From Tetraselmis striata (Eukaryota; Chlorophyta; Chlorodendrophyceae; Chlorodendrales; Chlorodendraceae), in NCBI GenBank assembly GCA_006384855.1, contig VCJN01002306.1, forward strand, positions 62,001 through 126,000: a stretch of 64,000 nucleotides of DNA, written 5' to 3'. The notes under the pieces are model-generated. The model searched no databases. It was not told where the DNA came from and saw only the letters and a program-made list of their open reading frames with translations. Position numbers and translations under genes: made by a program. Positions 6,978 through 26,613 of this stretch are shown one piece after another. How positions within the stretch are numbered: the first letter of the stretch is position 1; each line of letters opens with the position of its first letter.

Positions 6978-7310
6978 CATAGTGCCAGTTTGCAAAGTGG
7001 CACTACCATTTTCACGTCCACACCCCCGCGGGACCACGTGGGAAACCACGCGAATGTTCCACGGCCTCTACACCCCCCTTAGTGCCACTTTGCGATCCGA
7101 GGTGGCCGCTGTTCTACGCTCATGTATGTACCGAGAGGTACAATAGTATTGTATAGTGATGCTATCATATTAAAAAAAGTGGCACTAGTGGCACTAACAG
7201 CTGGAAAACAGTACTTTAGAGATAGCAACAACGTGCTTTCCAGCATGTTCCGTAGTGCCACTTTAACTGGCACTAAAGTGGCACTAGGTGCCACTTTCAA
7301 CAGCCGCGCA
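6978..7310. repeat. AGTGGCACT iteron-like non-coding block, copy 1
   Basis: The nonamer AGTGGCACT or its complement AGTGCCACT recurs at about 6981, 6995, 7081, 7179, 7188, 7253, 7265, 7276 and 7290, singly or in tandem and inverted pairs. Between motif groups lie a GGACCACGTGG-like palindrome and TTGTATAGTGATGCTAT followed by a short A tract. The same order of elements recurs in direct orientation at 11.97-12.31 kb. Short clustered repeats like this suit an origin of replication or a regulatory site bound by a viral factor. The last bases touch the end of the polymerase-helicase gene. Confidence 0.65.
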
Positions 7311-9798
7311 TGAAGTAGCTGGCGGTCCCCTTGTACACCCTCGGCGGGGCGCGGACGGCGTTTGCGGGCTCTTCGATGAAAGGGCAATCGTCGGCCTTGA
7401 ACTTCACGCCCCTCGCGACGTTCCTCTTATGCTCCCCGTCCACCCATGTTCGGCTGACGACGCGGATGCCACGTGTCTTGAGGTACGTCTCAAAGCAGTT
7501 CTTCCGGAATCGGATGGACCCCGGCAGCCCTCTCACCGCTTTATCGTCGAGCTTCCCAATGTACACATTGATTTCGCCGACCTGGACGTAGTCGTCCTCG
7601 TTGCGTGTTATCTCAAAGTGGGCGTCGAAGAACTCGGTCATGGGGTTGTCGTCTTGTGTGAGCTCCGCGCGGAACTCGATGAGCGACTCGGGCGGGTCGT
7701 TAAGGATACTCATGCACTCTTCGCCCGCCTCCACGAAGAGGTCGAACGTGGCCGAAAGCCAACCCTGCAGCTTTTGCCCGATGAGAGGATCCACGCGAAA
7801 GGGGTATTCGTAGCCCTTCGCCTTCTTCTTGAACTCCTCGTCGGTGGCCGCCGGGATGAACTTGGACCGGTGATGGAAGAAGAGCATGCGATCGTAGAAC
7901 ACCGAGTCCTGGCCCATCATGGGCATCTGCCCCTTATTGAAGCTGAATAGCGGCAGCGCCTTGCATCGGAACTCGAACGTGCTGCTCATACCGAATCGGC
8001 GCCCGGTCACCATCGGGAAGGAGGTGAGTTCCTTGAGCGTGTGCGTCGCGAGCTGCAAGCTGCCGCTCATCTCGTCGGCGGAAATCAGAAACTTGCCATT
8101 GAGCTTTTCCATGCACGCGTCGTGTCCATTCTTGTTGTTCGTGGAGTCCTTGATCATCATCTTCTTTGCGCTCTCGCCCTGAATCGCGAGCTTCCCCACC
8201 ATTTTGTTGAGGAGTTTCATGAGCTCCGTCTTTGCGTTCCACCCGTCCGTCGCGTCCGTCAGCACCGGCATGATCTTCCTGTCCTTCCTCGGAGTGACGA
8301 TGTAGCGACCAATGGCGATGAACGCGCGACGCTCGACCTCCACGGGGAACACTTGCTCGAGGAACCCCCTCACCCCGTCCTTGCTTTGCCCCGGCGTGTA
8401 GTCGTACCCGGTGGTCTGAGAGACGTAGTCGCCCATGCGTATGTCGCGGAATGCTTTAATCGCAAAATCATAGCAGCAGTTCTTGAAGGGGAAGATGTCG
8501 AGCGAGGTGTCCAACTTGTCGGAGAAACCGTCCTCGACGCAATGCAGATTCACCACGAGGTTGACGATCTTGTCGAGGTTGTTCCAAAGCCGGCAGGCCT
8601 TCTCGCCCATCTCTTCGTCGCAATTCTGCCCGGCCTCGATGAAGAGCTTGTTAACCTCGTTGCGGCTGATCTCGGACCAAACGCCGGCGGTAAAGCGGTA
8701 GAAGGTCTGCGACATGCCATCCAGCTTCAACTTTTCGAGCACATCCTTGTTGCGAGACCACAATAGCTCCGCGAAGTCTAGTCGCGTGACCAACGTCGCG
8801 TTGTTGCCGTCTGCCTTGTCGTCGATCGGCGGGAGGTTAGTCGGGATTTTAATGTGCGTCGCGAAGGGCTTAATTTCGAAGTTGAGCACGAAGCCGGTCT
8901 TCTGCACAACGAAGCGGCGGACGAGCTCGCAGTCGATATCATCCTCGCACTCGACAATACAGCCGTCAAACATCTTTGCGATGACCCTCGCTTGCTTGTG
9001 CTTGGTGACCACGTAATCGAGCATAGCATGCAAGATTTTGTCCTCCGCCTCGGTGATAAGGACGTGCATGAAACGCTTCTTGAGGCTGATAGGGGTGCAC
9101 GGCTTGTCTTGGACGGCAAGGCTCTCCTCCGCGACTTCAACCATTTTGGGCATGGCGGCCATCAACTCGTCCATGCATGCATGGAACTGCTCGCCATACC
9201 GAACGAGATAGTCGTAGATCGGCGTTTTCTCGATACCCTCCGGAATCTCGACATCGTTCTTGTAGGCCCACCCTTGAAAGGTGCCGCAGTTGATGAGGGA
9301 CAGGAGCAGAGACTTGGCGTTGTCGCGATTGCAATTGAAATCCCGTTGCGCGGACTCCAATATCCCCTTTCTGTCGTTGACGTAGGTCACGATCGTGTCA
9401 TACTTCGCTTGGACCTTGTGTTGCTCGATGAGCTGAAGCAGCAGCACCGGGTGGCAGTTGACGATGTCTATATCCACACACCGCTTCCCGGAGGTCTCCA
9501 TGTAGTAGTTTAACATGGCGTTGCGGATCGGGCGATGGAGATTTTGAATCGACAGCGGCAACGAGGTGTAATCACGACCGTACGTGTTCCCGGCTTTGTC
9601 GCTCAACTTCTTTTTGTACCACACCTTGAGAACACCGCTCTCGTCCACAAAAGAGATCATGCGTTGCACACGGACGTCCATGCCCTTGTCGCGCTTGTTG
9701 AATTGCATAGTGGGCAGTTCGTGGTCAATGATGTACTTTAGAGCTTCCCGGGCCATGGGCTCGGCGTAAAATTTCCGCGAAGCATTGGACCTCGGCAT
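7297..9798 (-). CDS. TVpol-like DNA polymerase fused to superfamily 3 helicase
   Basis: This 833-residue replication protein has an N-terminal family-A-like polymerase module and a C-terminal SF3 helicase. The polymerase module shows motif A around residues 108-117 (DIDIVNCHP), a fingers/motif B-like helix at about 158-172 (RDNAKSLLLSLINCG) and motif C at about 275-283 (KMFDGCIVE). The helicase has a degenerate Walker A (DGWNAKTEL, about 518-526), Walker B (KFLISADEMS, 569-578) and a downstream sensor-like FSFNKGQMP. TVpol-S3H fusions are known from virophages, PLVs and some transposons, where they copy the element's DNA. The Walker A lacks the usual GxxGxGK spacing, so ATPase activity should be tested. 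The gene is intact and ends inside an iteron-like block. Confidence 0.8.
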   Translation of the reverse strand: MPRSNASRKFYAEPMAREALKYIIDHELPTMQFNKRDKGMDVRVQRMISFVDESGVLKVWYKKKLSDKAGNTYGRDYTSLPLSIQNLHRPIRNAMLNYYMETSGKRCVDIDIVNCHPVLLLQLIEQHKVQAKYDTIVTYVNDRKGILESAQRDFNCNRDNAKSLLLSLINCGTFQGWAYKNDVEIPEGIEKTPIYDYLVRYGEQFHACMDELMAAMPKMVEVAEESLAVQDKPCTPISLKKRFMHVLITEAEDKILHAMLDYVVTKHKQARVIAKMFDGCIVECEDDIDCELVRRFVVQKTGFVLNFEIKPFATHIKIPTNLPPIDDKADGNNATLVTRLDFAELLWSRNKDVLEKLKLDGMSQTFYRFTAGVWSEISRNEVNKLFIEAGQNCDEEMGEKACRLWNNLDKIVNLVVNLHCVEDGFSDKLDTSLDIFPFKNCCYDFAIKAFRDIRMGDYVSQTTGYDYTPGQSKDGVRGFLEQVFPVEVERRAFIAIGRYIVTPRKDRKIMPVLTDATDGWNAKTELMKLLNKMVGKLAIQGESAKKMMIKDSTNNKNGHDACMEKLNGKFLISADEMSGSLQLATHTLKELTSFPMVTGRRFGMSSTFEFRCKALPLFSFNKGQMPMMGQDSVFYDRMLFFHHRSKFIPAATDEEFKKKAKGYEYPFRVDPLIGQKLQGWLSATFDLFVEAGEECMSILNDPPESLIEFRAELTQDDNPMTEFFDAHFEITRNEDDYVQVGEINVYIGKLDDKAVRGLPGSIRFRKNCFETYLKTRGIRVVSRTWVDGEHKRNVARGVKFKADDCPFIEEPANAVRAPPRVYKGTASYFMRGC

Positions 9799-11969: not shown

Positions 11970-12310
11970 CCAATATTGCCACTTTCAAACTGGCACTAGA
12001 CCCCCCCACGTCATGGGGCGGCGAGACCACGTGGAAAACCGCGTGGTTGATGCCGCCACCGAAAACCCCCCGTAGTGCCACTGTGCGTGACAAGGCCGCC
12101 CCCCGTTATCGCTCGCTTGTACCGTGAGGTACAAAAGTTGTTGTATAGTGATGCTATTATATTAAAAAAAGTGGCACTAGTGGCACTATGAGCTGGAAAA
12201 GGGAGTGACCGCGGAAGGTGATGACGTGGTTTGTACGTGAATCCGCAGAGCCAGTAAAAGTGGCACTAAGTGGCACTGTGATGCCACTTTGAGAATGGCG
12301 CGCGGAGCAC
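11970..12310. repeat. AGTGGCACT iteron-like non-coding block, copy 2
   Basis: This is a diverged direct copy of the block at 6.98-7.31 kb. It keeps the motif at about 11977, 11990, 12072, 12171, 12180, 12259, 12268 and 12283, the CCACGTGG palindrome, and TTGTATAGTGATGCTAT followed by an A tract. Conservation of order but not of intervening sequence suggests function. It is the last viral-type structure before AT-rich DNA. Confidence 0.65.
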
Positions 12311-12319
12311 GCGGAAATC

Positions 12320-12340
12320 CATATAAAAGCGCGCGGGCAC
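12320..12340 (+). promoter_or_regulatory. TATA-box-like promoter candidate
   Basis: The sequence CCATATAAAAGCGCG follows the second iteron block by about 20 bp. It is a good TATA box, but no convincing ORF follows: downstream are three copies of a 20-bp unit (AAGCTGCTATAATCGTTCCC, 12460-12517) and an AT-rich pyrimidine tract. It may mark the element's edge or drive a short non-coding RNA. Confidence 0.3.
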
Positions 12341-12459
12341 CGGGTGCAGCGTCATTTCCACCACGCCCACGCCAAAGCACTCGCAACAACCCGACAAAAC
12401 CCGACGCGTTTGCGCGTTATGCGATAATGATCATGCGACGATGATTATGCTATAACGAT

Positions 12460-12970
12460 TTCCAAGCTGCTATAATCGTTCCCAAGCTGCTATAATCGTT
12501 CCGAAGCTGCTATATAGCAAATCGTCGCGATTTGCAAAACTCAAATCATTTTCGTTTTTCGCTTTTCGTTTTCGTTTATTGTTTTCGTTTTTGTTTTTAT
12601 TTTCCAAGCAAATACATAGCATATACACAGCATATACACAGCCAGAAATATATATATATATAAATATAAATATTATTATACATGGTACATTCCGACATAT
12701 AGTGGCCTCACACAGATTCTGCATTCGGCAAAATGGAGTTCATTCATTGGTTGGTGTGACACAAGCCGGAAAAGGTCCCACCGGCTGTAATTGCGGAGTG
12801 GTTGCATGGTAGGTCGTTGTAGGGTGGCTGCACGGTGGCTTGACGTAGAACCCCGTAGAAGCACCAAATATGGGGAGAAGGTGTGAGGAAGCATGATTCA
12901 ACAAGCTAGAGCGGTTTTCGGGAAACGAATGTTGTGGAAGAATGATTACAAGGCTGTGCTGCGGGAGTGA
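12460..12970. other. AT-rich spacer with three 20-bp tandem repeats; no gene seen
   Basis: Three tandem 20-bp units (12460-12517) are followed by a T-rich run with TTTTCGTTTTCG-like repeats (12545-12605) and a TATATATA stretch around 12650. The AT-richness contrasts sharply with both flanks. I see no coding region. It may contain the right terminus of the viral element. Confidence 0.5.
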
Positions 12971-15052
12971 CATATATGTAGTGAGCTGGACAATCGAGTG
13001 ACGGTGCGCATCAAGGCGTCTGTGGGGCTTGAGGTGCGCTTCGACAAGATGCAGGCGTACGGCGCTGACATGGAGGCCGCGCGGCGTGAGGCTCGGGCCG
13101 ACATCGAGTGGCCCGAGCTAGATGGCCATCACGGCATCGCGGTCCTGAACGTGCCGCTCGGATCGCCGGAGTATGTGCAGGCGTACATGCGCGGCAAGGC
13201 GGAGGAGCTACGAGAGGAGGTGGACGCTAGCCTGAGCAAGTTTCTGTCTGCCAAGCCTAGCCGTCGGTACACCCACGCCTTGCATCACCACGCATGGGCC
13301 CTGCTCAAGCATTGCATGCAATACAAGGCGGGGTATTGGCTCCGCAATTGTCTTCCGTCCGAGGTGGAGGCCTTTGCGGAGGCGGTGGATGCCACCATCC
13401 TCGCGGCGGTCGAACGGGTGCTAGGGGTCTCTTTTGATCCCTCCACGTACGGCACCGACACCAATCCGGTGGTCACCGATTTCTTGGCGGAGCTTTTGCA
13501 CGACCCCAACCCCATGGCAGCGGAGGTGGCTACCTTGAGCGAGGATGCAGTGGCCAAGGCGCGCAGCATGCTTCACCTCCCCACTCGATTGAAGGGAGCT
13601 GGCATCCGCCGCATGGCTACCGTTCGTGATGCCGCCTTCATCGGCTGCATGAATGCCATCCTCCCAAGGTTCCTGACTAGGAACTCCGGCACCAACACCC
13701 CCACCCCTGGGTTCTTCGACCCACAGCTCGGGTCCGTACTTGGCCGAGGCAGCTTCAACGCAAATTCTTCCGCCCGCCAGTATGATCACTTCCTCAACGA
13801 TGCTCATGGGTCGGACAGCTACGCCGCGGAGATGCGCGAGGCGTGGGGCCGCCTCCAAGCGGCTACTGCTGGCCATCTCGGCGACGCAGATGTGCGATAG
13901 ATGGAGCGGGAAGTGGAGGCTGCGTCGGGCTCGCAAAAGGAGCTTACGGCATTTCTAGACCAGGCCAACAACTCTCGGCTTCGAAATGAGGTGTGCGCTC
14001 TCCTTGCCACATGTAGGGAACGGATCTTGTTCAACCAGCTCGACGCGGCGTCAGGCATGTGGACAGTGGCCATCCCCACCGCGCGGACAGCCACGACTCC
14101 GCATGAGCTGCGGGAGGTCGCTGCCGGGTACTTCTTTCTGCCTAGCCCGTGCTTGGCCCCGGTGGTTGGGTGCCAGATCATTCTGCCCTCGACGGAGCAC
14201 AACCCCGTCATTGTTGATCTATACGGCGACGCGCTCATGAACCTCCCGGCGCCTGGAGACGCTCACTGGCGTGTACAGCACGACGCTATCGCAGATGCCT
14301 TCCGCGATCACTGTGTTCACGACCTAGGTATCGCGGTACGGCGGGAGGTGGATGACTTGTTCCAGCAGGCAGTGCCTCTCGGCAACACCGTACCCAGGGA
14401 TGAACTCAAGGACCTAGTGCCGGACGCAGAGCTCTCCCTTCCGGCGTTCAACGTCGTGACCGGGAGCTATGATCCCCGGAGCTTGAAGTCCACGCTGCTG
14501 GAGTTCAAGACGATGCGGTTCGGGGTCAAGTACACTTCAGTGCCCCGGGCCACGGCTGTGGATCGGTTTGAGCGCTCCCTGTTGGGCGACATACAATGGG
14601 GGTTGGCTGCGCGGGATGCGGCGTGGCACAACACAGAGCCCGGACAGAAGGGTCCTCTTCGAGACATCATGGATATGTCGGAGTACACGGGCATGGTCTT
14701 CGGCACAGTGTGTGAGGTGAGCAAGGGGGTGCACCGCACAGTGCGTGGTATCGCATGCTTGGCTGCGGATCGGGGTGCCCTCTCATCGCGGGGCACTCGG
14801 TGCATCACCCGGGCTCACCAGGAGGCCTTGCTCGCAAGAGATTTCCTCGGGGTCCTGAGCCTGGTGGCCGCTCGAGAGCGCGCTCGCTGCCTCATCAGAC
14901 GGCGCAGATTCGTCTGCCATCCCGTTGCTGAAGCTGCACAGCACGTCCGAGGATCACCCACACACACACGTGCTCGCGTGGCCCGCCGGACTCTGAACCG
15001 TGTGCGCATCACTCATCCATCCCGCCTTATGCGGGATGCGGGCCGCTTTTAG
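12971..15052 (+). pseudogene. LINE-like retrotransposon, 3' coding remnant (post-RT region), one in-frame stop
   Basis: One frame is open from 12971 to 15052 apart from a single TAG at 13898-13900, which is followed at once by ATG. The upstream half has the spacing of the region after the reverse transcriptase in algal LINEs (a YWLRNCLP segment, then LPTRLKGAGIRRM and DAAFIGCMNAILPRF). The second half has a GD...HDAIADAF segment, then a Pro-Asp ... Leu-Leu-Glu-Phe-Lys-Thr series that could be a PD-(D/E)XK endonuclease core, and an Ala/Arg-rich helical end. The RT domain itself is missing, so the copy is 5'-truncated, as is usual for LINEs. Family assignment is by pattern only; another reverse-transcriptase-related element is possible. 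Confidence 0.45.
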
Positions 15053-16016
15053 GCGGCTTGCTGTGTTGATTTTCTAGTTCTGGGGAACTGTCCTTTTTGT
15101 AATTCACACCAGTAATGGTATGAGTACGTATTATACTGGTACGCGCCGCGCACGCGCGCGGCAGCGTTTTCATCCGGCGGCGGTACGGGTACCGTACCGG
15201 TGGCGTTCACAGGACGGACGGATATCACTGCATGTCGCGCATGGCGCCCGCGGCCCTACCCCACCACCCCCTGCACACACACCCGAACACCAAGACTTGC
15301 CACACGTGCGATAGGCAAGGCTTTGTGCCTGCATTTCCGAGCGATATTTGGTGCTGGCGGCTGGCTATAGCTCGCTTCCGGAGGTGGCGCTGCGAAGATG
15401 GCGACTGACCTTGACAAAACCGGCCTGTTCTCCGTCACGCCGAGCACCAACGTCGGGGATCCGTACGACAAACGAGCCGGTAAGGGGCCGCTTCGCACAA
15501 CGTCACTGCAACCGTTGACGTCGCCAGCACGGCAGCGGGCTGACACCAGCGACCAGAGCAGGGCAAGCGGCTAACGTTGCTACGGTTTATTAGCATGACT
15601 AGCTGGCCAGGCCTTGTTGCACATCCGTGCCCAGCCTGAGACTGGTATTGCACGCCCGTTCGAGCATAGCGCGCATATCGTCGTACGAGTACCTGCATTA
15701 GGCGCTTCGCCTTATACTTTCACCATCCCACCATCGAGCGAGTCTAGTTCGGACACTATCTCATTATCGTGTGAATCAAGGCAGGGTAAGCAAGTGACGA
15801 TGTAGGTATGGGCAGCATAGCCCCGGCACAGCGGCTATGGAAGCGGCTGCCTACCGGGCATGCCATGGGCAACAGGGGTGCGAGTAGTGCACATGGTAGT
15901 AACCTGGTGCACAGCCATCCCCTTGCAGCGTATACGCGGAACAAGCCGCATGCCGCGGGGTATTCGTTCGTGCTGCGCGTGTCCGCACTGGATCCTGGCC
16001 CCCAATTGGCTGAGGC
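15053..16016. other. Intergenic; no gene seen
   Basis: Short frames only, with no splice-consistent coding. It contains GC-rich alternations near 15150 and probably the promoter and possibly a first exon of the following cilia-protein gene. I could not place such an exon with confidence. Confidence 0.5.
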
Positions 16017-17494
16017 ATGGCGGTTTGGCCGCTGATGCATGCAGAGCTAGCGAGGTCCGCTTACAAGGGCAAGCAGTTCCTGGCTAACGGTCAGAAATGG
16101 GGCAAACAGACGCCGGACTGCTATATTGACAAGGACTTCAAACGCCTTACAGAGGTGAGAACGGCAGAGTTTGCTTCCATGCTTCTGTTTTGGACCCCAC
16201 ACTTGCCGCAAAGTTGTTGTTGGACCAGACGGTGACATACTGTCCACATGTAGCTGTGTTTCTTATTCGCATTCTTTGCTGCATAGGGTGAGCCGTATAA
16301 GTCCACATATGATATTGAGCGGGAACATGACCGTGCCTCAAGGGCCGCCCGGGTGTCGGAGAAACCGTTCCGGCCCTCTCATCCCGCAAAGACGAGCAAG
16401 AACAGCGCCGGGCTGGACGGGTGCATTGGCGAGGTGTACCTGTCAAGGCCGGACGGGGAGGGCTCCAAGACGGACCCCAAAATCCACCCGCGGCTCGGCC
16501 CCAAAAACTTCACCATCAGCGCTCCGAAGACCGCCCCAGCTGGCTACCCGCTGGACATGGTCATGATTGGTAGGAAACACAGCCCAACTCAGACCGTACA
16601 TACAAGTTCTACGAATGCCAATAGTAAGTTTCCGCCTTGATTTATGTTGACATCGCGCCCGCTGTGCTGAGCAGGGAAAGTGCCGGAGTACATGGTCGAG
16701 CCCTACCACCCTGCTATTGCCATCGAAAAGGTCCGCTCCGCTCCTCCCCCCCCCCCCCCCCTCTCCCCCCCCCCCCCCCCCCTGCCCCCCCGGGGCAGCC
16801 ATTGATTGCGGAGGTTTGCTGACTGCAAGCTTTCCGGGCTGTAGAAACTGAAGAAGGTTGCGAGGGAGAAGATCCACAAGCCCTGGGGGGCTGTGGGCGG
16901 CAAGAGCGATGGCGTGTTTGACCGGAACATCTACGCTGCGCCGGCTGGCCCCCTGTACCGGGACGCGCCAAAGAAGAAGTCCATGCACCCCCGTCCGTTC
17001 GCTCCAAGCAGCCCCGCCCGGAAGGTGCGCTGCACACACACACACCTCAGTCCCCACCACACATCGCCCTTGCCATGCACATGGTCCCGGAGGTTGACGA
17101 GTCCTTGGTGCACGGGCCGACAGTACAGCTGCATGCATCTCCTGAGATCTCTGTGCTGGTATCCTAGGGGAATTACGCCTATGCGAAGCTCAGCGACACA
17201 AACTACATCAACTGGAACGGCGAACCTTACAAGGATCCCCCCCGTGGGGACCTGCCGGTGAGCCTAGTGACCAGTTCCCGCCGTTGTAGAGCCTTCTGAA
17301 CGCCCCTCAACCATCCGGGTTGCGAGTCCTGGCACGTGCTCATGCCGGCAAGCGCTGTACCCCCACAGGGCAAGGCACCCCAACTGGGAGACAAGCCGTT
17401 CAGGCCTATCGGAGGCGCCAAGACGGTGTACACTCCCTCCATCAACCCGTACTCGCACGATGCCATGCCCCCGCTCCCCGAAATTGTGCAGTGA
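16017..17494 (+). CDS. CFAP96-like (C4orf47/UPF0602 family) cilia- and flagella-associated protein
   Basis: Six exons join in frame: 16017-16154, 16287-16569, 16675-16730, 16845-17024, 17168-17257 and 17369-17494 (TGA), giving about 290 residues, close to the family's usual length. All introns are GT-AG. Matching family features are the early KGKQFLANG segment, a Lys-rich FRPSHPAKTSKN segment, a PKNFTI...YPLDMVMIG block, a Lys-rich helix (KLKKVAREKIHKPWG) and FAPSSPARKGNYAYAKLSD before the end. Members are small axonemal or basal-body-associated proteins without enzymatic motifs. The first exon could be preceded by another, since Met1 lies close to a possible acceptor (TGCATGCAG). Intron 3 holds a long C tract. 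Its presence suggests an alga that builds flagella or retains the genes. Confidence 0.65.
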
Positions 17495-19055
17495 GGGGAC
17501 ACCTGCCAGCCTCAGAAGGAATCAAGCAACTTGGCACTGGAAAGTGCCGCCATTACCGCTGCCCAGATCTGGCCGGGGCTCACATGCCAGAGCTATCTGT
17601 GCCGACTTCCAATATGGAAGGTCCAGCACTGGGAGCGGCGCCAGCACCATGCCCCACCCCGGTCTACTGCTTATTTAGAATAACGCATTGCCATGGGAGA
17701 CATCGAGACCCCCCCCCCCCCCCCCCCCCCCCCCTTGGGCATCGGCTGGTTGCGGCCATCCGACGACCTACGCCACATTGTGGCCACATGTACATTTGGA
17801 GACGAGCTGCGTGCCGCGCGACATATTTGAAGTTTCTGACAACTTTTTTCCTGTTGGGTTTTTCAAAGCTGCGCAGGCCAGCTGTCTCACGGCCCGCCCA
17901 CATGGGGTCGGCTGCTTGCACAATGCCCGTAGCATGCAGCCCTCTAAAGGCCAAGCAACACATAATGAAAGCGCTGCCATCAACAGCCCATGCGTACCTG
18001 CTCCGTACCCACTGCTCGGTCGCTGCTTTTGGTGTGTGGTGGTCGCGCAGCAGCCAGAGATGTGCGGCACGCAAGTCTTGCAGCCATGCACTTGCACGAG
18101 ACCAGAATTCCCAGTGCCCGCAACCGCGCTTCTGTCCACTAGCTGGTGAAATACTGCTTTATCCCAGTTTTCAACGTGTTAATCTGAATCTGCGTGTCTC
18201 GCGGGATAAATCGCATCCACAATTATCCAGGGCATAGCAATATTGGGTTTTTATTGGAGATTGCCGTAAAGTGTCTGCGCAGCCCCACACTACCGTATGG
18301 CGACGATACGGGGTTCCGAAACCCCTGCCCGTTCCGGGCGGGTGGTCTGGAAAGATTCACTGGTTTGAATGCGGAATACCCTATTGATGCACATGTCAGC
18401 AGGGTGTAACTTGAATCAGGGTACGTGCTGATGATATATCAGATTTACGAGTACGAGTATATATAGTGACGCAACGGCTTCAATATGGGGAGAACGTAAC
18501 GATCGTTACCGGGTCGTCATTCGTCAACCACATGTGCGTGACTGCATGTCTGACGCGCGAACAGTCTGTCGACAGCACCGGTAGCGGTGTCGGCTGCCAA
18601 GAGACCGCGCGCAGCATTCCTGGGCATCTGCCACCCGCTTTCGCTGGTGTGGCCCATATGTGCTGCGACCTGCCTGCCTAGGCGTGTGTGCAACTGCACC
18701 GGATGTCGCGACGAGCGATGTGCGATTACCATTTATGAGGCAGTCAGTCGGTACCATATGCTCAGGGCTTGTAAGGTAATGAATCGCCACTTAGGGTTGC
18801 TGCGCCTAAAACCAGTAGCGCATGATATGGGGTTTCATTGTAGCCAGCAACATCATTCGTTATACACGTGGTCACACGCAAAGTTTATTGTGACGACGGG
18901 GAAGAGATTTCCTTCCCCAGTACTTTCCGTATATTCTCCGGATGCTTTGCCTGTATTTTAAAACCAAACCCATCATCACGGGAAGAGTCGGGCGAAGGCA
19001 AAACACTGCTCTCCCTGTGTTAACCAAAAAGTTCAAGCAGGCAAAACACTGCATT
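17495..19055. other. Intergenic; no gene seen
   Basis: A C tract of about 26 bases lies at 17709-17734. No frame is supported by splice sites or known motifs. At 19008-19052 is one copy of a short repeat (CTCCCTGTGTTAACCAAAAAG ... AAAACACTGC) that recurs at 26615-26690 on the other side of the Copia element, so the element landed in an older repeat. Confidence 0.5.
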
Positions 19056-19060
19056 CTCCG

Positions 19061-19385
19061 TGACAAAGGGATGGCTCAGGAACTGGAAGCAGAGAAGGAA
19101 GGAATGATTACAGTTCCGGAATTCCGGGCTATATATATGTATGGTCGTGCGGCTGAACAGTCACACCTCGGTCAGCCTCGCACGCACTCTTGATGGATAC
19201 GGGTAGTTAGCCGGTATCTCTAGGGTCTCTAAGTGAAACTACTAGAACTGCTAAGCGTTGCCCTTGTATGAGGGAGGGGAACCGCCGGGTCGCCGAACGG
19301 TCACCTGACATGGTGACGATGGTGATTTAACTGTCGGGTGTAGGGTTTGACAAAGCAGGGCTAGCCAGGGTCTGACTAGCCAACA
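19061..19385 (-). repeat. Copia 3' LTR
   Basis: 325 bp, nearly identical to the other LTR. It differs at three sites (near 19160, 19244 and 19329), two of them A/G transitions. It holds a TATATATA stretch that may serve as promoter in the 5' copy. Confidence 0.95.
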
Positions 19386-19400
19386 CCCCCCCACAAACCA
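19386..19400 (-). other. Copia polypurine tract
   Basis: Immediately inside the 3' LTR the coding strand reads GGTTTGTGGGGGGG before TGTTGG. A purine-rich run at this place primes plus-strand DNA synthesis in LTR retrotransposons. Confidence 0.6.
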
Positions 19401-19486
19401 AACACCAGTGGAAGGGGCTTGATGGTGGAGAACACACGGGGTGAAAACGAAATAGCGTCTAGGGGAGTTGGGGACGGGCACGGTGG

Positions 19487-22400
19487 TCACGCATGAAGCG
19501 GGCCCGCAACTGGGAGAATCTTGGGTTTGGAATAGCCTTGGTGAACATATCGGCAAGATTGTCTGCAGACTGGATACTCCACCTGAATGGCTCCAGACGC
19601 GACCAATTCACGAACGTAGTGATATCGGATGTCGACATGTCGCAACTTCCGGCCCACAGAAAGTTGACGCAGGTTGCAAAGTGAGCCTTCATTGTCGGAC
19701 TGGAGAGTGACGGGATGGTCCTTCAGGGCAGTCGGTCCGAGAACCTCGCACAAAAACTGGCGAGAGAACATAATGACGCGTCCAGCTTCAGACGCGGAGA
19801 CATATTCTGCTTCGCATGAAGAGAGAGCGGTAGTGACTTGCTTGTGGGAGCCCCAACAGAAAGCGGACCCAGAGAGACAACCGATATGGCCGGATGTGGA
19901 GCGTCGGTCGTCGGCATCCCCTGCCCAGTCGGAGTCAACTGCGAACAATGGGACGAAGGACTGGGCTGTGGTCTGGGTATAGTGTAGACCAAGGGTAGCG
20001 GAACCGGCGAGGTAGCGAAGCACGCCCTTAGCTGCCAGCAAATGCTGGTCTGTGGGTTTGTGATTGTAAGAACAAAGCTTGGTGACTATCGCAGCGATGT
20101 CCGGGCGGGTACAGACAGAGAGCCACAGAAGGCTGCCCACCAGTTGCTTGTATAGAGACACTTGATCGGTTGGTAGGAGAGTGCCTGCAGTGGCTGAGAG
20201 ACGGGTGTCCACGCGACACGGTAGGCTCTGCGGGTTGCAGTCTGTCATGCCGAAGGTGGCAAGGACATCGTGAATGTATTTAGTTTGATGAAGGATAACG
20301 GACCCGTCATCGTCGTCCCAGTCGAGGCCCATCCCCATGAGCCAGGTGCAAAGGCCAGCGTCGGTGCAGTCGAACTCGGCCAGCAAACGAGTCTTGAATG
20401 CCGGGTACCACGCGGGATCCGCGGCCTCGAGGATGATGATGTCATCAACGTAGATTGCAACAGCTGCGAAGTCCCCGTCGGTGCCAACGAGTTGTACATA
20501 CACACACCCATCCGATGTGCACTGTCGAAAGTTATTGCGCTTGAGATAGTTGTCGAGCTCTGTGAACCAAAGGCCGGGTGACTGGCGGAGGCCGTAGAGA
20601 GCGCGGAGGAGTCGACCCACCATAGGTTCGCCACTCTCAGAAAATTCCTCCATGCCGCGGGGAAGTTTTATGTAAATTTCCTCAGTGACCTTGGCATTGA
20701 GAAACGCAGTGGTGACGTCCATGTTGTAGATGCGACGACGAAGGTAAACAACCAGGGCGAGCAGTATGCGGATGGAGACAAAAGAGACCACAGGCGCATA
20801 CAGCTTGGTGCTGTCAAAGTCGATGCCAGGGCGTTGGTGGTTGCCCAAAACTACGAAACGAGCCTTGCGCTTGTCAACGTACCCATTCTTTAAGAATTTA
20901 GTCCGAAAGGCATACCGGGTGCCGAGCGCCTTATGCCCAGGAGGGAGTGGACACACTTTCCACGTCTGTTTAGCGAGAAGGGCAGTATTTTCTGTCGCAA
21001 CGGCAGCCTGCCACTCCGCAGCGTAGGGGGAGCGCATGGCTTCGTCACAAGTGAGCGGGTCAGGAGGTAGATCTCCACCAGGGGAATGGCGAGGTGCTGA
21101 GGCTGCAAGGCAAAAGCCGGAGGTAGGAGCTGGAGAACGGGAGTGAAATTCCCGGCCCGCGGTGTCAGGTCGAGGTATCGCGCACGCCAAGAGGGCGGTT
21201 GGCACACCGGCGTCGCATGGGATGTCGTGCTGAGAGAGGGTGGAGGGAAGCGAAACGGAGTCCACGACTGCAGCCGGGGCAGCCGGGCATGAGGACTTGG
21301 TGGTCCCATAGTAGACGTAGGAATCATCGGTGGTGCTGGAGCGGATACGAGTGCTGCGACGCAGTGGCGGGGAAGACGGTAGCGGTGGCAGCTGGCGGAT
21401 GTCCACGGCAGCGTTGTCGGCGCCGTCGCTAGACGAAGAATCAGCCACAGCGTGGGGGCTGACGTTGGACGGGGTAGTGGGGGGCAGGGAAGAACCACGT
21501 TGCAGGGGCGACGTGGGGGTCTCCGCAGAGAGGAGAGGTGACGAAGGTGAGGCCAGTGAGGAGGGCAGCTGGGGAAGAACCGGCTGCGGTGCGGGGGTAT
21601 GGTCTTCGTTGTCCACGGAGCGGGGAGGCGGAGAGGCAGGCGATAGTGGAGAGTCCACAGATGGGTGTATGATGCCGGTGGAAATGTATGTGGGGGTTTG
21701 CGCATGGTCATCGTCGTCATCAACAGAGAGCGCTGGCGACTGAGGGTATAGCGTCGCCGCCTCACTCGGTGACTCCAACAAGGGCTCGCTGGAAAAGGAC
21801 TGGGAACCGAATGGAAAGGTGTGGCCCTGCCTCCAGCTCTCGCAGAACACCGCACTGCGTGTTACCGAGATCGCGCCGGTGGTTGGGTTATACACCTGCC
21901 AGCCAGGAGAATTAGGCGACTGACCGACGTATATGCCCTTCCATGCCGCCACGTCCGCCTTTCGGCGAAGCGTACGGTCGAGGTGCACGTAGGCCGGGCA
22001 GCCGAAGACCCGCATGCCGGAGAGGTCTACCTCTTGACCAGCAGCGAGCAACGGAACATCTCCGGGTCTTGCGCTCCACTTGCGATTAATGATGTAGACT
22101 GCATGGTACCAAGAGAGCTCCCAGAAACTAATGGGTAGACCGGCATAGAGCAGTTGGCATTTGGCAATGCAAGCCAGGGTTCGCCAAGGGCGCTCCGCAC
22201 GCGCGTTCTGATGAGGGCTATAGCTGTCGCACGTCTGCATATCCACATTAGCGTCTTTGCAGATCTTCTCAAGAGAAGAGCACAGGAACACAGCAGCGCG
22301 GTCAACGCGGATCTGGCGGACAGTGAAGCCCTTGTGGCGTGCAAAAGCCAAGAAGCGATCCACGGCACCTGCGGCCTCGGACTGCGTAGCAAGACTGCCC

Positions 22401-25400
22401 GCCAGGTGAACATTCGTGCGCCGGCAGTTGGCGCCAATCATCCAGCGGCGACCGTGAAGCGACGGAGCCATGGGTCCCCATATGTCGAGATTGAGTACGG
22501 CGAATGGTTCATGCTCGAAACGTGAGCCGACGGTGCGAGGAACTGCAGCAACGGTGGACTTGACGAGTGCGCATACCTCGCAGAATGGCGGGGCACCGGT
22601 AACATAGGGGAGACTGGGCACCAGTTTGGCGGTTCGCAAGATGCCGTCATGATGGGTGTGACCCATCCGCGCATGGAGGAGTGCAGCCTGGGCACGAGAG
22701 CCAGCAAAACCGCCCGAACGGCCGACAGCGGCCGCCGCTACCGGCACGGGAGAGGCGAGTGTGCGAGCACTAGCTTGGGGCGTATCGGCAGAAGGGGTCA
22801 CGACAGCGTGCAATGCGTAGAGTCCGACATCGTGCATACGTTCCACATTGACGTCCGCGCCGCAGGGGAGCGTCATGGTAGAAGCGCTGGGGCCGAAGTA
22901 GAAAGTCGCGCCGGAGGACTGCGCTGCGCTCTGGCTGAAAAGGAACTCCACTGCGTGCGGAAGAGCGGCGGTGAGAAGGCCGGGAGCGTGGAGTACATTC
23001 CGCAAAACGGAGACGACTGGTTGACCGGCGGTAGATGTGTAAGTAACGTGTAAGGTACCCACACCGTAGACTTTTGCGCGTAGGCCGCCAAGGCGAAACT
23101 GGTCCGAGGATGTCAGTGTCGTGTAAGTATAGAAACGACGACGCCGCCCAGCGACGTGCCACGATGCGCCGCTGTCCAGGAGGAATAGCTGAGGACTGGG
23201 AGGTGCGGTGTTGGGAAGAACAGCACACGCGGGTAGAGCCGCACATGGTATAGATGTGCAAAGATAGGCCGCCACGGCCCGGAAGAACCAGACCGCGAGG
23301 TTGCGGTCGACGCAGCCTCCGAGGGCTGCACACAACTCGTTGTTGGGGATAGATGTGCAGAGCACCGCGTTCCTAGGGAAACCCATGAGGAGAGGGGGCA
23401 CTAGAGCATCCGGTTCCTCCATCTTTCCAAAATGCATCAGCATGCCAGCACCAGGAGATCCGTCCGGCTGAGGACGAAAGGCATAACTCCCTGCCGTTGC
23501 GACTAGTTTAGGGAGGTGATGTTGGTCAGGGCGAATGCATGTCCATTCGGGCGACAGGCCGTGCGATGACAGCACCGACGCCAGTGGCGGAGCCGAGTGA
23601 CGTTGAGCGGCGTAGTGGTCCATGAGAGAGCTATAAGGAGCGGCGTTGGTCCACAGGAGTGTACGCCGGGCAGCCGACGAACCGCAGTCCAACGCGTTCA
23701 CGATGAGAGGCTCGCCAAGAGAGAGGATAAGCTCCGGACACTTCAGCGCTCCCGGCACATTTTCTATTATGTAAGAAACTGAGGCAGGCTGCGCATCCGC
23801 CAGATGCCGTACAATGCGAATGACGGCTGCCATGACGCCGCTGCGCATATCCTCCCATCCGCGACCGCAGCCAGCACTAGACCAGGGCTCGCAGCAGGGC
23901 CCCGCAGCGACCAGGGTGACTGGAGGCATGGCTGCAAGCACATCCTCAGTGATTAAGGTCACGTCCTGCGGCGTAGAGGAGAACGCCTCCTGAAAGGCGT
24001 CCTCGTGGAGCTGGGTCGGGTACTCGGCAGACAGCATCCGAAGGCGGTCCGCAGCCCAACGTCTCCGCACGGGACTAATTTCGCAAAGTGTCACCCTAGT
24101 GACCGCGAAGCCTGCCGTCAGCATGCCGTCGAGCAGAGAGAGCGTCCCGCCGCAGCACAGCCCGAAGAAGTGATTGATGATGAGAGCATGAGGAAGAGGC
24201 ACCAGGCCCACGGTCTGAAGGGACGGAAGCTCCGGGGCGGAGGCGGGGGGTGCAGCAGCAGCTGTGAAAACCAATGCGGATGGCGCGCACATGTCCATGG
24301 TTGCGGTGCAGCCAGTCGGAGTCGCGGGGCCCGTGACTGGTGAGTGATGGTCAATGGCGGGTCGCTCCAACGGCGGTGATACGCTGTCATGCGTGTAAAG
24401 TGAGGAATGGCCACGTGGCCGGAGTGGACCAGCGGCAGATGGGGCATCAGTGTAGAGAGAGTAGTGACGCCCGCAATTTGTGTGGTCGATGAGGGGTGAG
24501 GCCGATCCACGTAGGGCACATGTGTCGTGCTGACCGCCGCGCCCAGCCAGACCAACGCCGCCACTCCGCGCGGCCGTGGTGTCGTTGAGGAAACCGCAGT
24601 CACTGCAGTCAGTATAGGTGGCGCACTCAGCGCCCTCTCCGCCAGCACGCGTTCCATCCATCACGTCGAGCAGCTCATCGAATCCATCACAGCCGGCCGA
24701 GACGGAGTAACTGCGCTGTCCTTGCGGGAGCTCAGTAGGTGTAGTCTCGGCGACGGTGGGGAAGGGCACATTGAATCCGTCGCAGATGGGAAGGGAGAGC
24801 GGAAAAGTGGGGGCGTGAGCCATGCACACGAAACCATCCCCAGGCAACTCCACGGTGGGGGGGGCGCTGGCGATAGCGCCAGTGGGCCGCCCGCCAGGGA
24901 ACACAGGCGGCTGGGACTTGACAGGGTTCGGGCGTGCTCCCGCTGAAGTGCGAAGGCCGCCGCTGGCAAGCCACGCAGGTTTCTCCGCCGGCGGGGAATC
25001 AAGGAGCATGGAGCCGTTGACGTGCCGTGTTTGCCAGCAATACGGTGCTGTGTGACGGGAACGACCACAGCGACTGCATTCACGGTCTGGGTAGGACTGG
25101 GTAGGGAGCGACGCCGACATTGCCACTGGTGGTGGGGTGACGGGAGCAGGAGCGCGAGTAATAAGGTCAACGTGCGGTGACAATGACGGGCGCCTGGCGG
25201 CCTCACGAAGAGCCTTGATCACGACCTTGCCGCGAAGCGCTGCGTAGTCGCAGTGGATGCCATCTGCCCGTAGCTCCTCCAAGTCGTCCCGCAGTTTCTC
25301 ATAGCGCTCGTGAATACCGGGAACAAAATATAGATCCATGAAGTCGTCGTCCGTAAGCTCCGCCTCCAGGGTTGTACGCAAGGTACGGCGCGCAGTCTCC

Positions 25401-25918
25401 ATGCGATAAAGGTAGGCGCCTAAGTCTTCATGTGCGAGTTGACCACGGCGCAGGCCGTCCAGTACCGTTTTAACGTGCCTATGCTTGTGCTGCTGAAACA
25501 TGTTTAACACCGCTCCCCATGCAGCCGCGCCATGGTGGTTGTCGATAGCGAGGACATCGTTGTCAAGAGGGGTACAATAATTGACCTCCGCAGTTGCAAG
25601 AGGATTTTGTTGAACGGCTGCCTCCACGCACTCGAAGAGAAGATTCTGACGCAGGTAGCCACTGCCCCCGGCCAGGGCCTCAGCGAGGCCGTTTCTGGCA
25701 GCCCAAGATGTAAAGGACTTGCGCCATGTGATAAAATCTTCAATGCTTGCCCGGTCCGCAAGTTTGGGAGCGCGCTGTGGCTCGACACGTTGCATGGTGC
25801 TCTCCTCAAGAAGGACAGCGGGGGATGCGCCGGAGGTTACCGAAGTCATGTTTATGGGGAAAAGAATGGGTTGAAAGGTTGAAAGTCGTCCCGCCAGTGG
25901 CAGTGAATGTGATGACAT
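19487..25918 (-). CDS. Copia Gag-methyltransferase-Pol polyprotein (2143 aa)
   Basis: Domains in order are: Gag (about 25-250); CCHC zinc knuckle (281-294, CSRCGRSRHTAPYC); a low-complexity linker (300-575); a C5 DNA methyltransferase (about 580-885); aspartic protease (LLDSGASWH, Asp915); GAG-pre-integrase HHCC (about 1080-1120); integrase with Asp1145, Asp1206 and Glu1242 (35-residue spacing); a Pro/Ser-rich spacer (1370-1600); reverse transcriptase with YVDD at 1823-1826; and RNase H (Asp1995 to Asp2075). All catalytic residues are present and the frame has no break. Met24 is an alternative start. Everything but the methyltransferase is standard for Copia; at over 2100 residues the product is several hundred residues longer than usual. 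Neighbouring LTRs indicate a young copy. Confidence 0.93.
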   Translation of the reverse strand: MSSHSLPLAGRLSTFQPILFPINMTSVTSGASPAVLLEESTMQRVEPQRAPKLADRASIEDFITWRKSFTSWAARNGLAEALAGGSGYLRQNLLFECVEAAVQQNPLATAEVNYCTPLDNDVLAIDNHHGAAAWGAVLNMFQQHKHRHVKTVLDGLRRGQLAHEDLGAYLYRMETARRTLRTTLEAELTDDDFMDLYFVPGIHERYEKLRDDLEELRADGIHCDYAALRGKVVIKALREAARRPSLSPHVDLITRAPAPVTPPPVAMSASLPTQSYPDRECSRCGRSRHTAPYCWQTRHVNGSMLLDSPPAEKPAWLASGGLRTSAGARPNPVKSQPPVFPGGRPTGAIASAPPTVELPGDGFVCMAHAPTFPLSLPICDGFNVPFPTVAETTPTELPQGQRSYSVSAGCDGFDELLDVMDGTRAGGEGAECATYTDCSDCGFLNDTTAARSGGVGLAGRGGQHDTCALRGSASPLIDHTNCGRHYSLYTDAPSAAGPLRPRGHSSLYTHDSVSPPLERPAIDHHSPVTGPATPTGCTATMDMCAPSALVFTAAAAPPASAPELPSLQTVGLVPLPHALIINHFFGLCCGGTLSLLDGMLTAGFAVTRVTLCEISPVRRRWAADRLRMLSAEYPTQLHEDAFQEAFSSTPQDVTLITEDVLAAMPPVTLVAAGPCCEPWSSAGCGRGWEDMRSGVMAAVIRIVRHLADAQPASVSYIIENVPGALKCPELILSLGEPLIVNALDCGSSAARRTLLWTNAAPYSSLMDHYAAQRHSAPPLASVLSSHGLSPEWTCIRPDQHHLPKLVATAGSYAFRPQPDGSPGAGMLMHFGKMEEPDALVPPLLMGFPRNAVLCTSIPNNELCAALGGCVDRNLAVWFFRAVAAYLCTSIPCAALPACAVLPNTAPPSPQLFLLDSGASWHVAGRRRRFYTYTTLTSSDQFRLGGLRAKVYGVGTLHVTYTSTAGQPVVSVLRNVLHAPGLLTAALPHAVEFLFSQSAAQSSGATFYFGPSASTMTLPCGADVNVERMHDVGLYALHAVVTPSADTPQASARTLASPVPVAAAAVGRSGGFAGSRAQAALLHARMGHTHHDGILRTAKLVPSLPYVTGAPPFCEVCALVKSTVAAVPRTVGSRFEHEPFAVLNLDIWGPMAPSLHGRRWMIGANCRRTNVHLAGSLATQSEAAGAVDRFLAFARHKGFTVRQIRVDRAAVFLCSSLEKICKDANVDMQTCDSYSPHQNARAERPWRTLACIAKCQLLYAGLPISFWELSWYHAVYIINRKWSARPGDVPLLAAGQEVDLSGMRVFGCPAYVHLDRTLRRKADVAAWKGIYVGQSPNSPGWQVYNPTTGAISVTRSAVFCESWRQGHTFPFGSQSFSSEPLLESPSEAATLYPQSPALSVDDDDDHAQTPTYISTGIIHPSVDSPLSPASPPPRSVDNEDHTPAPQPVLPQLPSSLASPSSPLLSAETPTSPLQRGSSLPPTTPSNVSPHAVADSSSSDGADNAAVDIRQLPPLPSSPPLRRSTRIRSSTTDDSYVYYGTTKSSCPAAPAAVVDSVSLPSTLSQHDIPCDAGVPTALLACAIPRPDTAGREFHSRSPAPTSGFCLAASAPRHSPGGDLPPDPLTCDEAMRSPYAAEWQAAVATENTALLAKQTWKVCPLPPGHKALGTRYAFRTKFLKNGYVDKRKARFVVLGNHQRPGIDFDSTKLYAPVVSFVSIRILLALVVYLRRRIYNMDVTTAFLNAKVTEEIYIKLPRGMEEFSESGEPMVGRLLRALYGLRQSPGLWFTELDNYLKRNNFRQCTSDGCVYVQLVGTDGDFAAVAIYVDDIIILEAADPAWYPAFKTRLLAEFDCTDAGLCTWLMGMGLDWDDDDGSVILHQTKYIHDVLATFGMTDCNPQSLPCRVDTRLSATAGTLLPTDQVSLYKQLVGSLLWLSVCTRPDIAAIVTKLCSYNHKPTDQHLLAAKGVLRYLAGSATLGLHYTQTTAQSFVPLFAVDSDWAGDADDRRSTSGHIGCLSGSAFCWGSHKQVTTALSSCEAEYVSASEAGRVIMFSRQFLCEVLGPTALKDHPVTLQSDNEGSLCNLRQLSVGRKLRHVDIRYHYVRELVASGAIQVEYPVCRQSCRYVHQGYSKPKILPVAGPLHA
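23264..24181 (-). other. C5 DNA methyltransferase domain embedded in the Copia polyprotein
   Basis: Residues about 580-885 carry the C5-methyltransferase motifs in canonical order. Motif I is FFGLCCGGTLSLLDG (584-598). A motif II-like acidic residue follows in VTLCEISP. Motif IV is AAGPCCEPWS with candidate catalytic Cys676. Motif VI is YIIENVPG with Glu719. Motif VIII is ARRTLLWTN (750-758). Motifs IX/X are LLMGFPRN ... LGGCVDRNLAVWFFRA. The short distance from motif VIII to the GFP motif and the VSAAHRARYFWGN-like spacing resemble DNMT3-type de novo enzymes more than bacterial ones. Motif IV has Pro-Cys-Cys-Glu in place of Pro-Pro-Cys-Gln, so activity needs a test. No break interrupts the domain. 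Confidence 0.88.
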
Positions 25919-26269
25919 GAAGAGGTTGGTGGTAATGTTGCAGAATTATATGCTTTTCGGCGAGCTGAGATGATGTCGACCGCAAGCTTGTAGAGGATGA
26001 GCAAGGAGAAAGCCAAAGACGTTGAGGCTGAGGCAGACACGAAGTGGCAAAAAGTAGAGACGACGTCTGAAGACGTTGTCGACACGAGGGTGTTGAAGCA
26101 GGTGTCCAAAATATAGGAAAGGGGGAAGGAAAGTCGATCAGTTTTCGAGCTGCTTTTCAGGTCGGCGCGCTTGTTGGCAAGTAGCTGGAGCGGCCGAGGC
26201 AGTGCAAAAGGAAAGGCAAAGGAAGTCGGTGGAGTTCACTCGATGCTGTCGAGGAAGTCTACCAAGTGA

Positions 26270-26283
26270 GAGGGCCCATAGCC
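26270..26283 (-). other. Copia primer-binding site candidate
   Basis: Directly inside the 5' LTR the coding strand reads GGCTATGGGCCC. Its complement, GGGCCCATAGCC, resembles the anticodon arm of eukaryotic initiator tRNA-Met (GGGCCCATAACC in some species), not a tRNA 3' CCA end. Drosophila copia is known to be primed by a half-molecule of initiator tRNA-Met cut in the anticodon region, so the same mechanism is plausible here. Confidence 0.5.
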
Positions 26284-26608
26284 TGACAAAGGGATGGCTC
26301 AGGAACTGGAAGCAGAGAAGGAAGGAATGATTACAGTTCCGGAATTCCGGGCTATATATATGTATGGTCGTGCGGCTGAACGGTCACACCTCGGTCAGCC
26401 TCGCACGCACTCTTGATGGATACGGGTAGTTAGCCGGTATCTCTAGGGTCTCTAAGTGAAACTACTGGAACTGCTAAGCGTTGCCCTTGTATGAGGGAGG
26501 GGAACCGCCGGGTCGCCGAACGGTCACCTGACATGGTGACGATGGTGATTTTACTGTCGGGTGTAGGGTTTGACAAAGCAGGGCTAGCCAGGGTCTGACT
26601 AGCCAACA
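26284..26608 (-). repeat. Copia 5' LTR
   Basis: 325 bp, TG...CA ends, flanked on the outside by the duplicated target CTCCG. It drives transcription leftward into the polyprotein, whose first ATG lies about 365 bp downstream of the LTR. Confidence 0.95.
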
Positions 26609-26613
26609 CTCCG

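Follow-up and report, generated by a model that had tools for sequence, protein, structure and literature searches.

A predicted DNMT3-like cytosine-5 methyltransferase in the Gag-Pol polyprotein of Copia retrotransposons of the green alga Tetraselmis striata

DNA methylation is usually a weapon of the host against transposons, which raises the question why a transposon should carry an enzyme of the very kind that silences transposons. The question becomes testable in Tetraselmis striata, a chlorophyte of the class Chlorodendrophyceae, where a stretch of 64,000 nucleotides (contig VCJN01002306.1, positions 62,001 to 126,000; hereafter the window, to which coordinates refer unless a contig is named) holds a Copia element with a methyltransferase domain in its polyprotein. 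A first-pass annotation, made from the sequence alone, had described this element as young and apparently intact and its domain as a DNMT3-like C5-methyltransferase, new for Copia.

The window element and its methyltransferase domain

The element lies on the minus strand and comprises the following features:

19061..26608, minus strand: complete Copia-type LTR retrotransposon, 7548 bp (LTR pair, target site duplication, single ORF with Copia domain order)
26284..26608, minus strand: 5' LTR, 325 bp, with TG...CA ends and 3 mismatches to the other LTR
19061..19385, minus strand: 3' LTR, 325 bp, its partner, with TG...CA ends
19056..19060, no strand: left target site duplication CTCCG (direct sequence reading)
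26609..26613, no strand: right target site duplication CTCCG (direct sequence reading)
19386..19397, minus strand: G-rich stretch adjoining the 3' LTR (direct reading), which we take to be akin to a polypurine tract
19487..25918, minus strand: unbroken single Gag-MTase-Pol ORF of 2143 aa (ORF translation)
25037..25078, minus strand: Gag zinc knuckle CSRCGRSRHTAPYC, residues 281-294 (pattern; Pfam zf-CCHC_5 well below cut-off)
23264..24181, minus strand: DNMT3-like C5-methyltransferase domain, residues 580-885 (Pfam, alignment, trees, structure, dN/dS)
23891..23893, minus strand: codon of C676 in GPC-C-EP (motif IV), the counterpart, by alignment, of the cysteine in motif IV of DNMT3A and presumably catalytic like it
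23756..23764, minus strand: ENV (motif VI), residues 719-721, invariant in 10 of 10 aligned domains
22976..23185, minus strand: aspartic protease region, Pol_BBD and DSGA motif (Pfam)
21836..22699, minus strand: integrase region with gag_pre-integrs, rve and SH3 (Pfam; only SH3 above cut-off)
20216..20968, minus strand: Copia-type reverse transcriptase (RT), RVT_2, residues 1651-1901 (Pfam, E 3.5e-50)

The Pfam matches along the ORF come in the order zinc knuckle, DNA_methylase, Pol_BBD (residues 912-981), gag_pre-integrs, integrase core and SH3-like (together 1074-1361), and RVT_2. The element is of Ty1/Copia type both by the succession protease, integrase and RT (RVT_2) and by its TG...CA LTR ends (325-bp LTRs) with a short target duplication (5-bp CTCCG). 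Direct reading recovered the 325-bp LTRs with three differences, the CTCCG duplication and the open frame as first annotated, and the methyltransferase does lie between the Gag zinc knuckle and the protease, with residues 281-294, 580-885 and 915-918 (the DSGA motif) following one another.

Elsewhere in the window, on the minus strand, lie a 994-aa ORF with a collagen-repeat match (2916-5897) and an 833-aa ORF with a match to D5_N, of primase-helicase type (7300-9798); judged by these matches, the two possibly belong to an endogenous DNA virus, e.g. a polinton-like virus. Gypsy-type pieces (protease, RT, RNase H, integrase) at 51413-55919 (minus strand) have no methyltransferase match, and a repeated ORF at 57999-58466 (plus strand) matches residues 60-214 of the Tetraselmis gene model P0002 at 85%, a part that lies outside the Copia part of that model.

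Residues 580-885 of the 2143-aa ORF map exactly to 23264-24181. Pfam DNA_methylase (cut-off 22) scores 27 bits (E 3.9e-6) when the polyprotein is scanned entire, and the excised stretch by itself gives 30.5 bits (E 3.2e-7). The profile searches bear out a C5-methyltransferase domain, where a failure to align would have refuted the first-pass annotation. The match spans only profile positions 37-116 of 324, and the full extent of the domain therefore comes from the alignment with its relatives and from the predicted structure. The latter has a DNMT3-type catalytic fold: it aligns with DNMT3A over model residues 21-330, and the top 33 rows of the structure search are all DNMT3A, DNMT3B or DNMT3C. 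The conserved stretches are an I-like region, GPC-C-EP, ENV, a VIII-like ARR..LLW.N and MGFP...GG.VD.N, which we take to be motifs I, IV, VI, VIII and IX/X of C5-methyltransferases. In an alignment of ten rows (six Copia lineages and a LINE), C120, E163-N164-V165, R195, W200 and N202 (domain numbering) are invariant, and the combination expected of a DNMT3, i.e. the motif IV cysteine, ENV and the motif VIII arginine, occurs in all ten. The family of the window element (lineage A) has some residues of its own: its motif IV reads GPCC-EP where the other lineages have PPC.P, and its motif I has a cysteine where DNMT3A has a phenylalanine. The cysteine at the presumed catalytic position is kept in 20 of the 21 lineage copies examined, the exception (L021) having a serine.

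Bit scores alone are indecisive on the class of the enzyme, being nearly equal for DNMT3A (38.9), HaeIII (38.3) and DNMT2 (36.3). Trees with a single DNMT3 reference, and with DRM, DNMT5, DNMT6 and ChloroDNMT left out, group the retroelement domains with DNMT3 and not with DNMT1, DNMT2 or bacterial-type enzymes, at 100/99 in two trees of nine references each and at 100/100 in a third with six. An AU test rejected a grouping with DNMT1 instead of DNMT3 (p 0.0002, the groups having been picked after an earlier tree). All retroelement domains together to the exclusion of DNMT3A form a weak group (67/56 and 78/73 in two trees). Capture of a bacterial- or phage-type Dcm enzyme was considered and rejected: HhaI, DNMT1 and seven Dcm-type enzymes from viral contigs or the host lie across the 100/99 branch. 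The viral-contig scan, with at least 14 loci, served only to supply such Dcm-type references. Tree and predicted structure thus agree on the DNMT3-like label first proposed, and they support, with one DNMT3 reference sequence, the reading that the window Copia encodes a DNMT3-like cytosine-5 methyltransferase in its Gag-Pol.

Copies, Copia lineages and selection

The genome (224,097,584 bases in 2903 contigs) gave at least 133 matches to the domain, which excludes chance; 20 places carry it at 85% identity or more over at least 305 of 306 residues, 16 of them without a stop codon. A search with the RT found at least 24 lineage A places at 72% identity or more (best first), and 23 of the 24 listed have the domain upstream on the same contig and strand. 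In the stretch read, the remaining one (C1098) begins to match the element at position 3475, just past the end of the domain at 3345, and is therefore a truncated copy and not a domain-free version. The first-pass annotation had allowed for other family copies lacking the domain and the window copy being a chimera; what was found are domain-bearing copies genome-wide. Lineage A consists of two subfamilies, told apart by some 63 nt of in-frame sequence that lie between integrase and RT (about element position 5090) and are absent from the window copy. EukProt gene models with the tag Tetstr1 (presumably JGI's label for Tetraselmis striata) lie very close to this genome: P0010, of 612 residues, agrees with the window at 100% identity along 205 of them, and in the stretch searched P0013-P0015 share 98-99% identity with lineage C. 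A protein search with the aligned domain (8000 candidates scored) returned four proteins, all Tetraselmis gene models.

The domain is also present in Copia lineages B, C, D, E and F, at 31-38% identity to A. Lineage F is a degraded copy, called Copia from a downstream RVT_2 match; lineage D, one copy of which has identical 445-bp LTRs, scores 18.5 bits with Pfam DNA_methylase, under the cut-off of 22, and is assigned from alignment and tree. Wherever the whole ORF was read, i.e. in A-D and in P0001 and P0017 (Copia proteins from outside this genome with related domains), the order is zinc knuckle, methyltransferase, protease; similarity to the A stretch runs out 9-30 residues ahead of the protease motif in B, C, D and P0001. 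The Copia methyltransferases occupy one side of a branch (98/96 and 97/94 in two trees). Methyltransferase and Pol trees share the pairs (A,B) and (C,E), the A/B pairing in the Pol trees being possibly false because two long branches meet there. They conflict on D and P0001: one Pol tree joins D and P0001 at 82/89, and one methyltransferase tree places D with C and E at 94/92. On the whole the two sequence histories match broadly, as would be expected if an ancestral Copia had captured the domain and its descendants had inherited it. Judged from these comparisons, the domain has long belonged to several Copia lineages. Of the original picture of a domain in a young element, the youth of the window copy stands, with LTRs that differ at 3 of 325 positions, but the domain is not confined to one young element.

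One Copia family of the same genome, with an ORF of about 1561 aa, has no methyltransferase (no Pfam DNA_methylase match up to E 1 in the copy read). It is very abundant, with several copies on some contigs, and is a natural control. In the Pol tree this family has the A/B group on one side and C/D/E/P0001 on the other, and the domain was therefore lost there or the root is nearby; the tree is unrooted for want of a Copia outgroup, so that loss in this family is indistinguishable from later gain elsewhere. Its copies form clusters on C411, C440, C805, C1303, C1776, C2881 and other contigs, which are possibly centromeric.

Selection was assessed from pairwise NG86 ratios in a sample of 20 stretches and the window copy, using the copies that cover at least 90% of a region (18 for the methyltransferase, 12-17 elsewhere). 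Within lineage A the dN/dS of the methyltransferase is 0.352 (95% CI 0.24-0.55; 18 copies), as against 0.684 (95% interval 0.45-1.04) for the linker before it. RT has 0.261 and the linker before it 0.51, and the other regions have 0.16 (gag), 0.29 (protease), 0.21 (integrase) and 0.26 (RNase H). Compared with three copies of an 85% subfamily, the values are 0.338 for the methyltransferase, 0.490 for the adjacent linker and 0.247 for RT. The methyltransferase ratio was below that of the linker in 982 of 1000 within-lineage bootstraps (the linker value was reached in 1.8%) and in 936 of 1000 against the subfamily (6.4%), a modest contrast with overlapping confidence intervals. Pairs of open copies gave 0.27 in lineage B, 0.21 in lineage C and 0.34 in a close third pair. 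The methyltransferase is thus constrained much as the other enzymes of the element are, and by these ratios purifying selection is shown to keep it in the Copia lineages tested. Fused in the element's ORF, present in many copies and under purifying selection, the domain has the marks of a retrotransposon-encoded DNMT.

Related domains in LINE and Gypsy elements

Within this one genome the related domain occupies different places in the polyproteins of Copia, LINE and Gypsy elements. The LINE family that carries it has three near-identical places and a broken one, and its frame of 3505 aa comprises an endonuclease match, RVT_1, a PCIF1-type match, the DNMT3-like domain and RNase H. Two trees place the LINE domain among those of Copia (96/94 and 91/88), a grouping with A/B in particular reaching only 58/16. 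PCIF1 is the RNA methyltransferase of cap m6Am. The LINE L034 with L070 (C2687, about 12300-23200; PCIF1_WW match, E 7e-15) thus holds two different methyltransferase-type domains within one retroelement.

Of 136 rows, 38 belong to the Tetraselmis Gypsy family with an identity of at least 95% across 295 or more of 303 residues. In the one copy read (L072, C1950:2200-8600) a DNMT3-like domain precedes the RT, and a PHD finger lies near the C-terminus. The Pfam methylase score of 21.6 bits is just under the cut-off of 22, for which reason the assignment rests on the tree, where the domain is placed only as DNMT3-like (joining the other Gypsy domains, p-AU 0.34). In L072 the domain is split between two frames, with a motif I-like stretch in one and the remainder in the other; several copies share an open frame of 1771 aa, and frameshifting or a separate ORF is therefore possible. 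Near the C-terminus of L072 there is also an SPWF-type stretch, which to our mind recalls N6-adenine methyltransferases; P0008, one of the Gypsy proteins described next, has a D12 match below cut-off.

The Gypsy proteins P0003-P0008 (P0007 from Haematococcus lacustris) combine a related domain, 27-31% identical to that of the window, with a PHD finger, a type for which we found no description in the open-access full-text literature. In the two that were scanned, P0004 and P0008, the domain is placed after RNase H and before integrase, unlike its position in Copia; P0008 scores 12.9 bits with Pfam DNA_methylase, below cut-off, and is assigned from alignment and tree. When P0004 was used as query, other Gypsy families of the Tetraselmis genome matched its integrase-PHD part, but their gap between RNase H and integrase is about 60 residues (e.g. 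on C1905) as against about 590 in P0004, and they are therefore without a methyltransferase there. A further methyltransferase ORF of the genome is HhaI-like: a 325-aa form occurs at six places (L009, L010; C1993, C776, C1647, C2337, C355, C1455), the two that were read being near-identical, and C1230 has three instances of a 341-aa form. Clusters of several Copia copies occur on C776 and C1230 as well.

Human DNMT3A as query gave 89 rows up to E 1, the best at 24 bits (E 0.0018, 28% identity), and 44 of the 89 share the match range of the Tetraselmis Gypsy family. No conventional DNMT3 gene stands out among these 89 rows, a result to be read in view of exons that split the signal, a distant query and a possibly incomplete assembly. 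In the available text of PMC9998398, likewise, DNMT3 is not found in any green alga of the MMETSP transcriptomes. All this suggests that in chlorophytes DNMT3 may persist mainly inside retroelements. More tentatively, and with somewhat less than even confidence, we propose that in Tetraselmis and other chlorophytes the DNMT3-like module is mobile among Copia, LINE and Gypsy elements, having been passed between them and not recaptured, and that these elements hold the only DNMT3-type activity of the genome.

Possible roles and known systems

In a single unicellular green alga, retroelements of the Copia, Gypsy and LINE types themselves carry an enzyme of the de novo type, and its mobile DNA may set epigenetic marks of its own. 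The explanation that we prefer, and consider an evenly balanced proposition, is that the DNMT3-like enzyme, made as part of Gag-Pol, is packaged in particles and methylates the element's cDNA de novo. The methyltransferase would enter the virus-like particles together with nucleocapsid and RT, the protease would free or hold it, and it would add 5-methylcytosine to the double-stranded cDNA before or just after integration. The new copy would thereby be marked as already methylated DNA, and the mark could shield it from host defences against foreign DNA or temper its expression. What speaks against such self-methylation are the unusual motif residues of lineage A and the missing CpG footprint. 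A CpG-decay footprint was looked for in LTR pairs and in CpG o/e and had to be discarded as evidence. Between the LTRs (16 pairs found in 26 stretches) there is no excess of CpG transitions, with 6 at 574 CpG and 29 at 2364 other C/G positions. CpG o/e is 0.97 in A, 0.89 in B, 0.81 in C, 0.84 in D and 0.81 in the methyltransferase-free Copia (one copy each save A), i.e. depletion is no stronger in the elements with the enzyme. The abundance of that methyltransferase-free family also means that the domain is not needed to spread.

Other explanations share part of this evidence. The enzyme might act in trans on the host genome or chromatin and shift host methylation or silencing to the benefit of the element; the many open-frame copies would amount to a large dose, and since the search for a conventional DNMT3 gave no strong match (best 24 bits), the genome could depend on retroelements alone for DNMT3-type enzymes. 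We nevertheless regard action in trans as unlikely, for Pfam shows no chromatin-targeting domain beside the lineage A methyltransferase, and outside the element the window has a CpG o/e of 1.05, so that no CpG decay is visible in it. The odd motif I and IV residues of lineage A, and the serine at the presumed catalytic position in one of 21 copies (L021), would suit a domain that is non-catalytic and kept as a DNA- or protein-binding module, like mammalian DNMT3L. The catalytic cysteine in the other 20 copies and in 10 of 10 lineage rows, together with ENV and the motif VIII arginine in the same ten, makes such a module improbable, DNMT3L itself being without several catalytic motifs. The domain might instead methylate RNA, be it the genomic RNA or the tRNA primer, in the way of DNMT2 with tRNA: it comes after the zinc knuckle of the nucleocapsid, an RNA-binding module in such elements, the LINE family of the genome has a related domain together with a PCIF1_WW match, and the missing CpG footprint would fit. 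Yet tree and structure point to DNMT3, and DNMT2 lies across a 100/99 branch in the tree that includes it, which leaves RNA as a quite improbable substrate. An assembly chimera, a single-copy accident or a host gene fragment inserted by chance in one copy, finally, has practically no likelihood, given the 20 domain places at 85% identity or more, the domain at 23 of 24 RT places with the 24th truncated at its edge, and the selection on the reading frame.

For self-methylation of cDNA, our preferred explanation, the closest precedents are in PMC5890265 (de Mendoza 2018), cited here from a part of its text, where the same mechanism is proposed for retrotransposon DNMTs. According to that text, de novo methylation of CG was seen in yeast with two SymbioDIRS-Dnmt3 domains, and the KnitGypsy-Dnmt3 and SymbioLINE domains had no activity in the yeast assay, which is called inconclusive there. 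It describes Gypsy, DIRS and LINE elements with a DNMT and states that Symbiodinium Copia is without any DNMT domain; the precedents in dinoflagellates (Symbiodinium DIRS and LINE) and in a streptophyte alga (the Klebsormidium nitens Gypsy), mentioned in the first-pass annotation, are thus on record. Its claim of novelty for Copia needs tempering. We found no description of a cytosine-methyltransferase Copia in a chlorophyte in the open-access full-text literature as far as its text was available, but the nearest mention, one sentence in the accessible part of PMC12344493 (Mol Biol Evol 2025) citing the 2018 paper, names DNMT3 members in 'LTR Copia and DIRS'. That sentence agrees with our finding of DNMT3 in LTR Copia, but gives no element, host or architecture; it may refer to this kind of element or be a slip, the cited paper, in the part available, describing Gypsy.

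Compared with the catalytic domain of human DNMT3A and DNMT3B, the window domain is only 15% identical; lineage A has no PWWP or ADD match (Pfam), and its domain has a longer region ahead of motif IV. The SymbioDIRS-Dnmt3 and SymbioLINE-Dnmt elements (PMC5890265, in the text available) are, like those described here, many-copy retrotransposons with cytosine methyltransferases, one type likewise being a LINE, but they are DIRS and LINE elements of a dinoflagellate host as against Copia in a green alga. The SymbioLINE enzymes form an orphan lineage according to the same text; the domain of the Tetraselmis LINE, by contrast, falls with those of Copia. By its description in that text, KnitGypsy-Dnmt3 differs in being a Gypsy of a charophyte and not a Copia of a chlorophyte. 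It shares with the window element a DNMT3-related domain in an LTR polyprotein of the green lineage and is reported, like the Tetraselmis Copia, to be multi-copy and under purifying selection.
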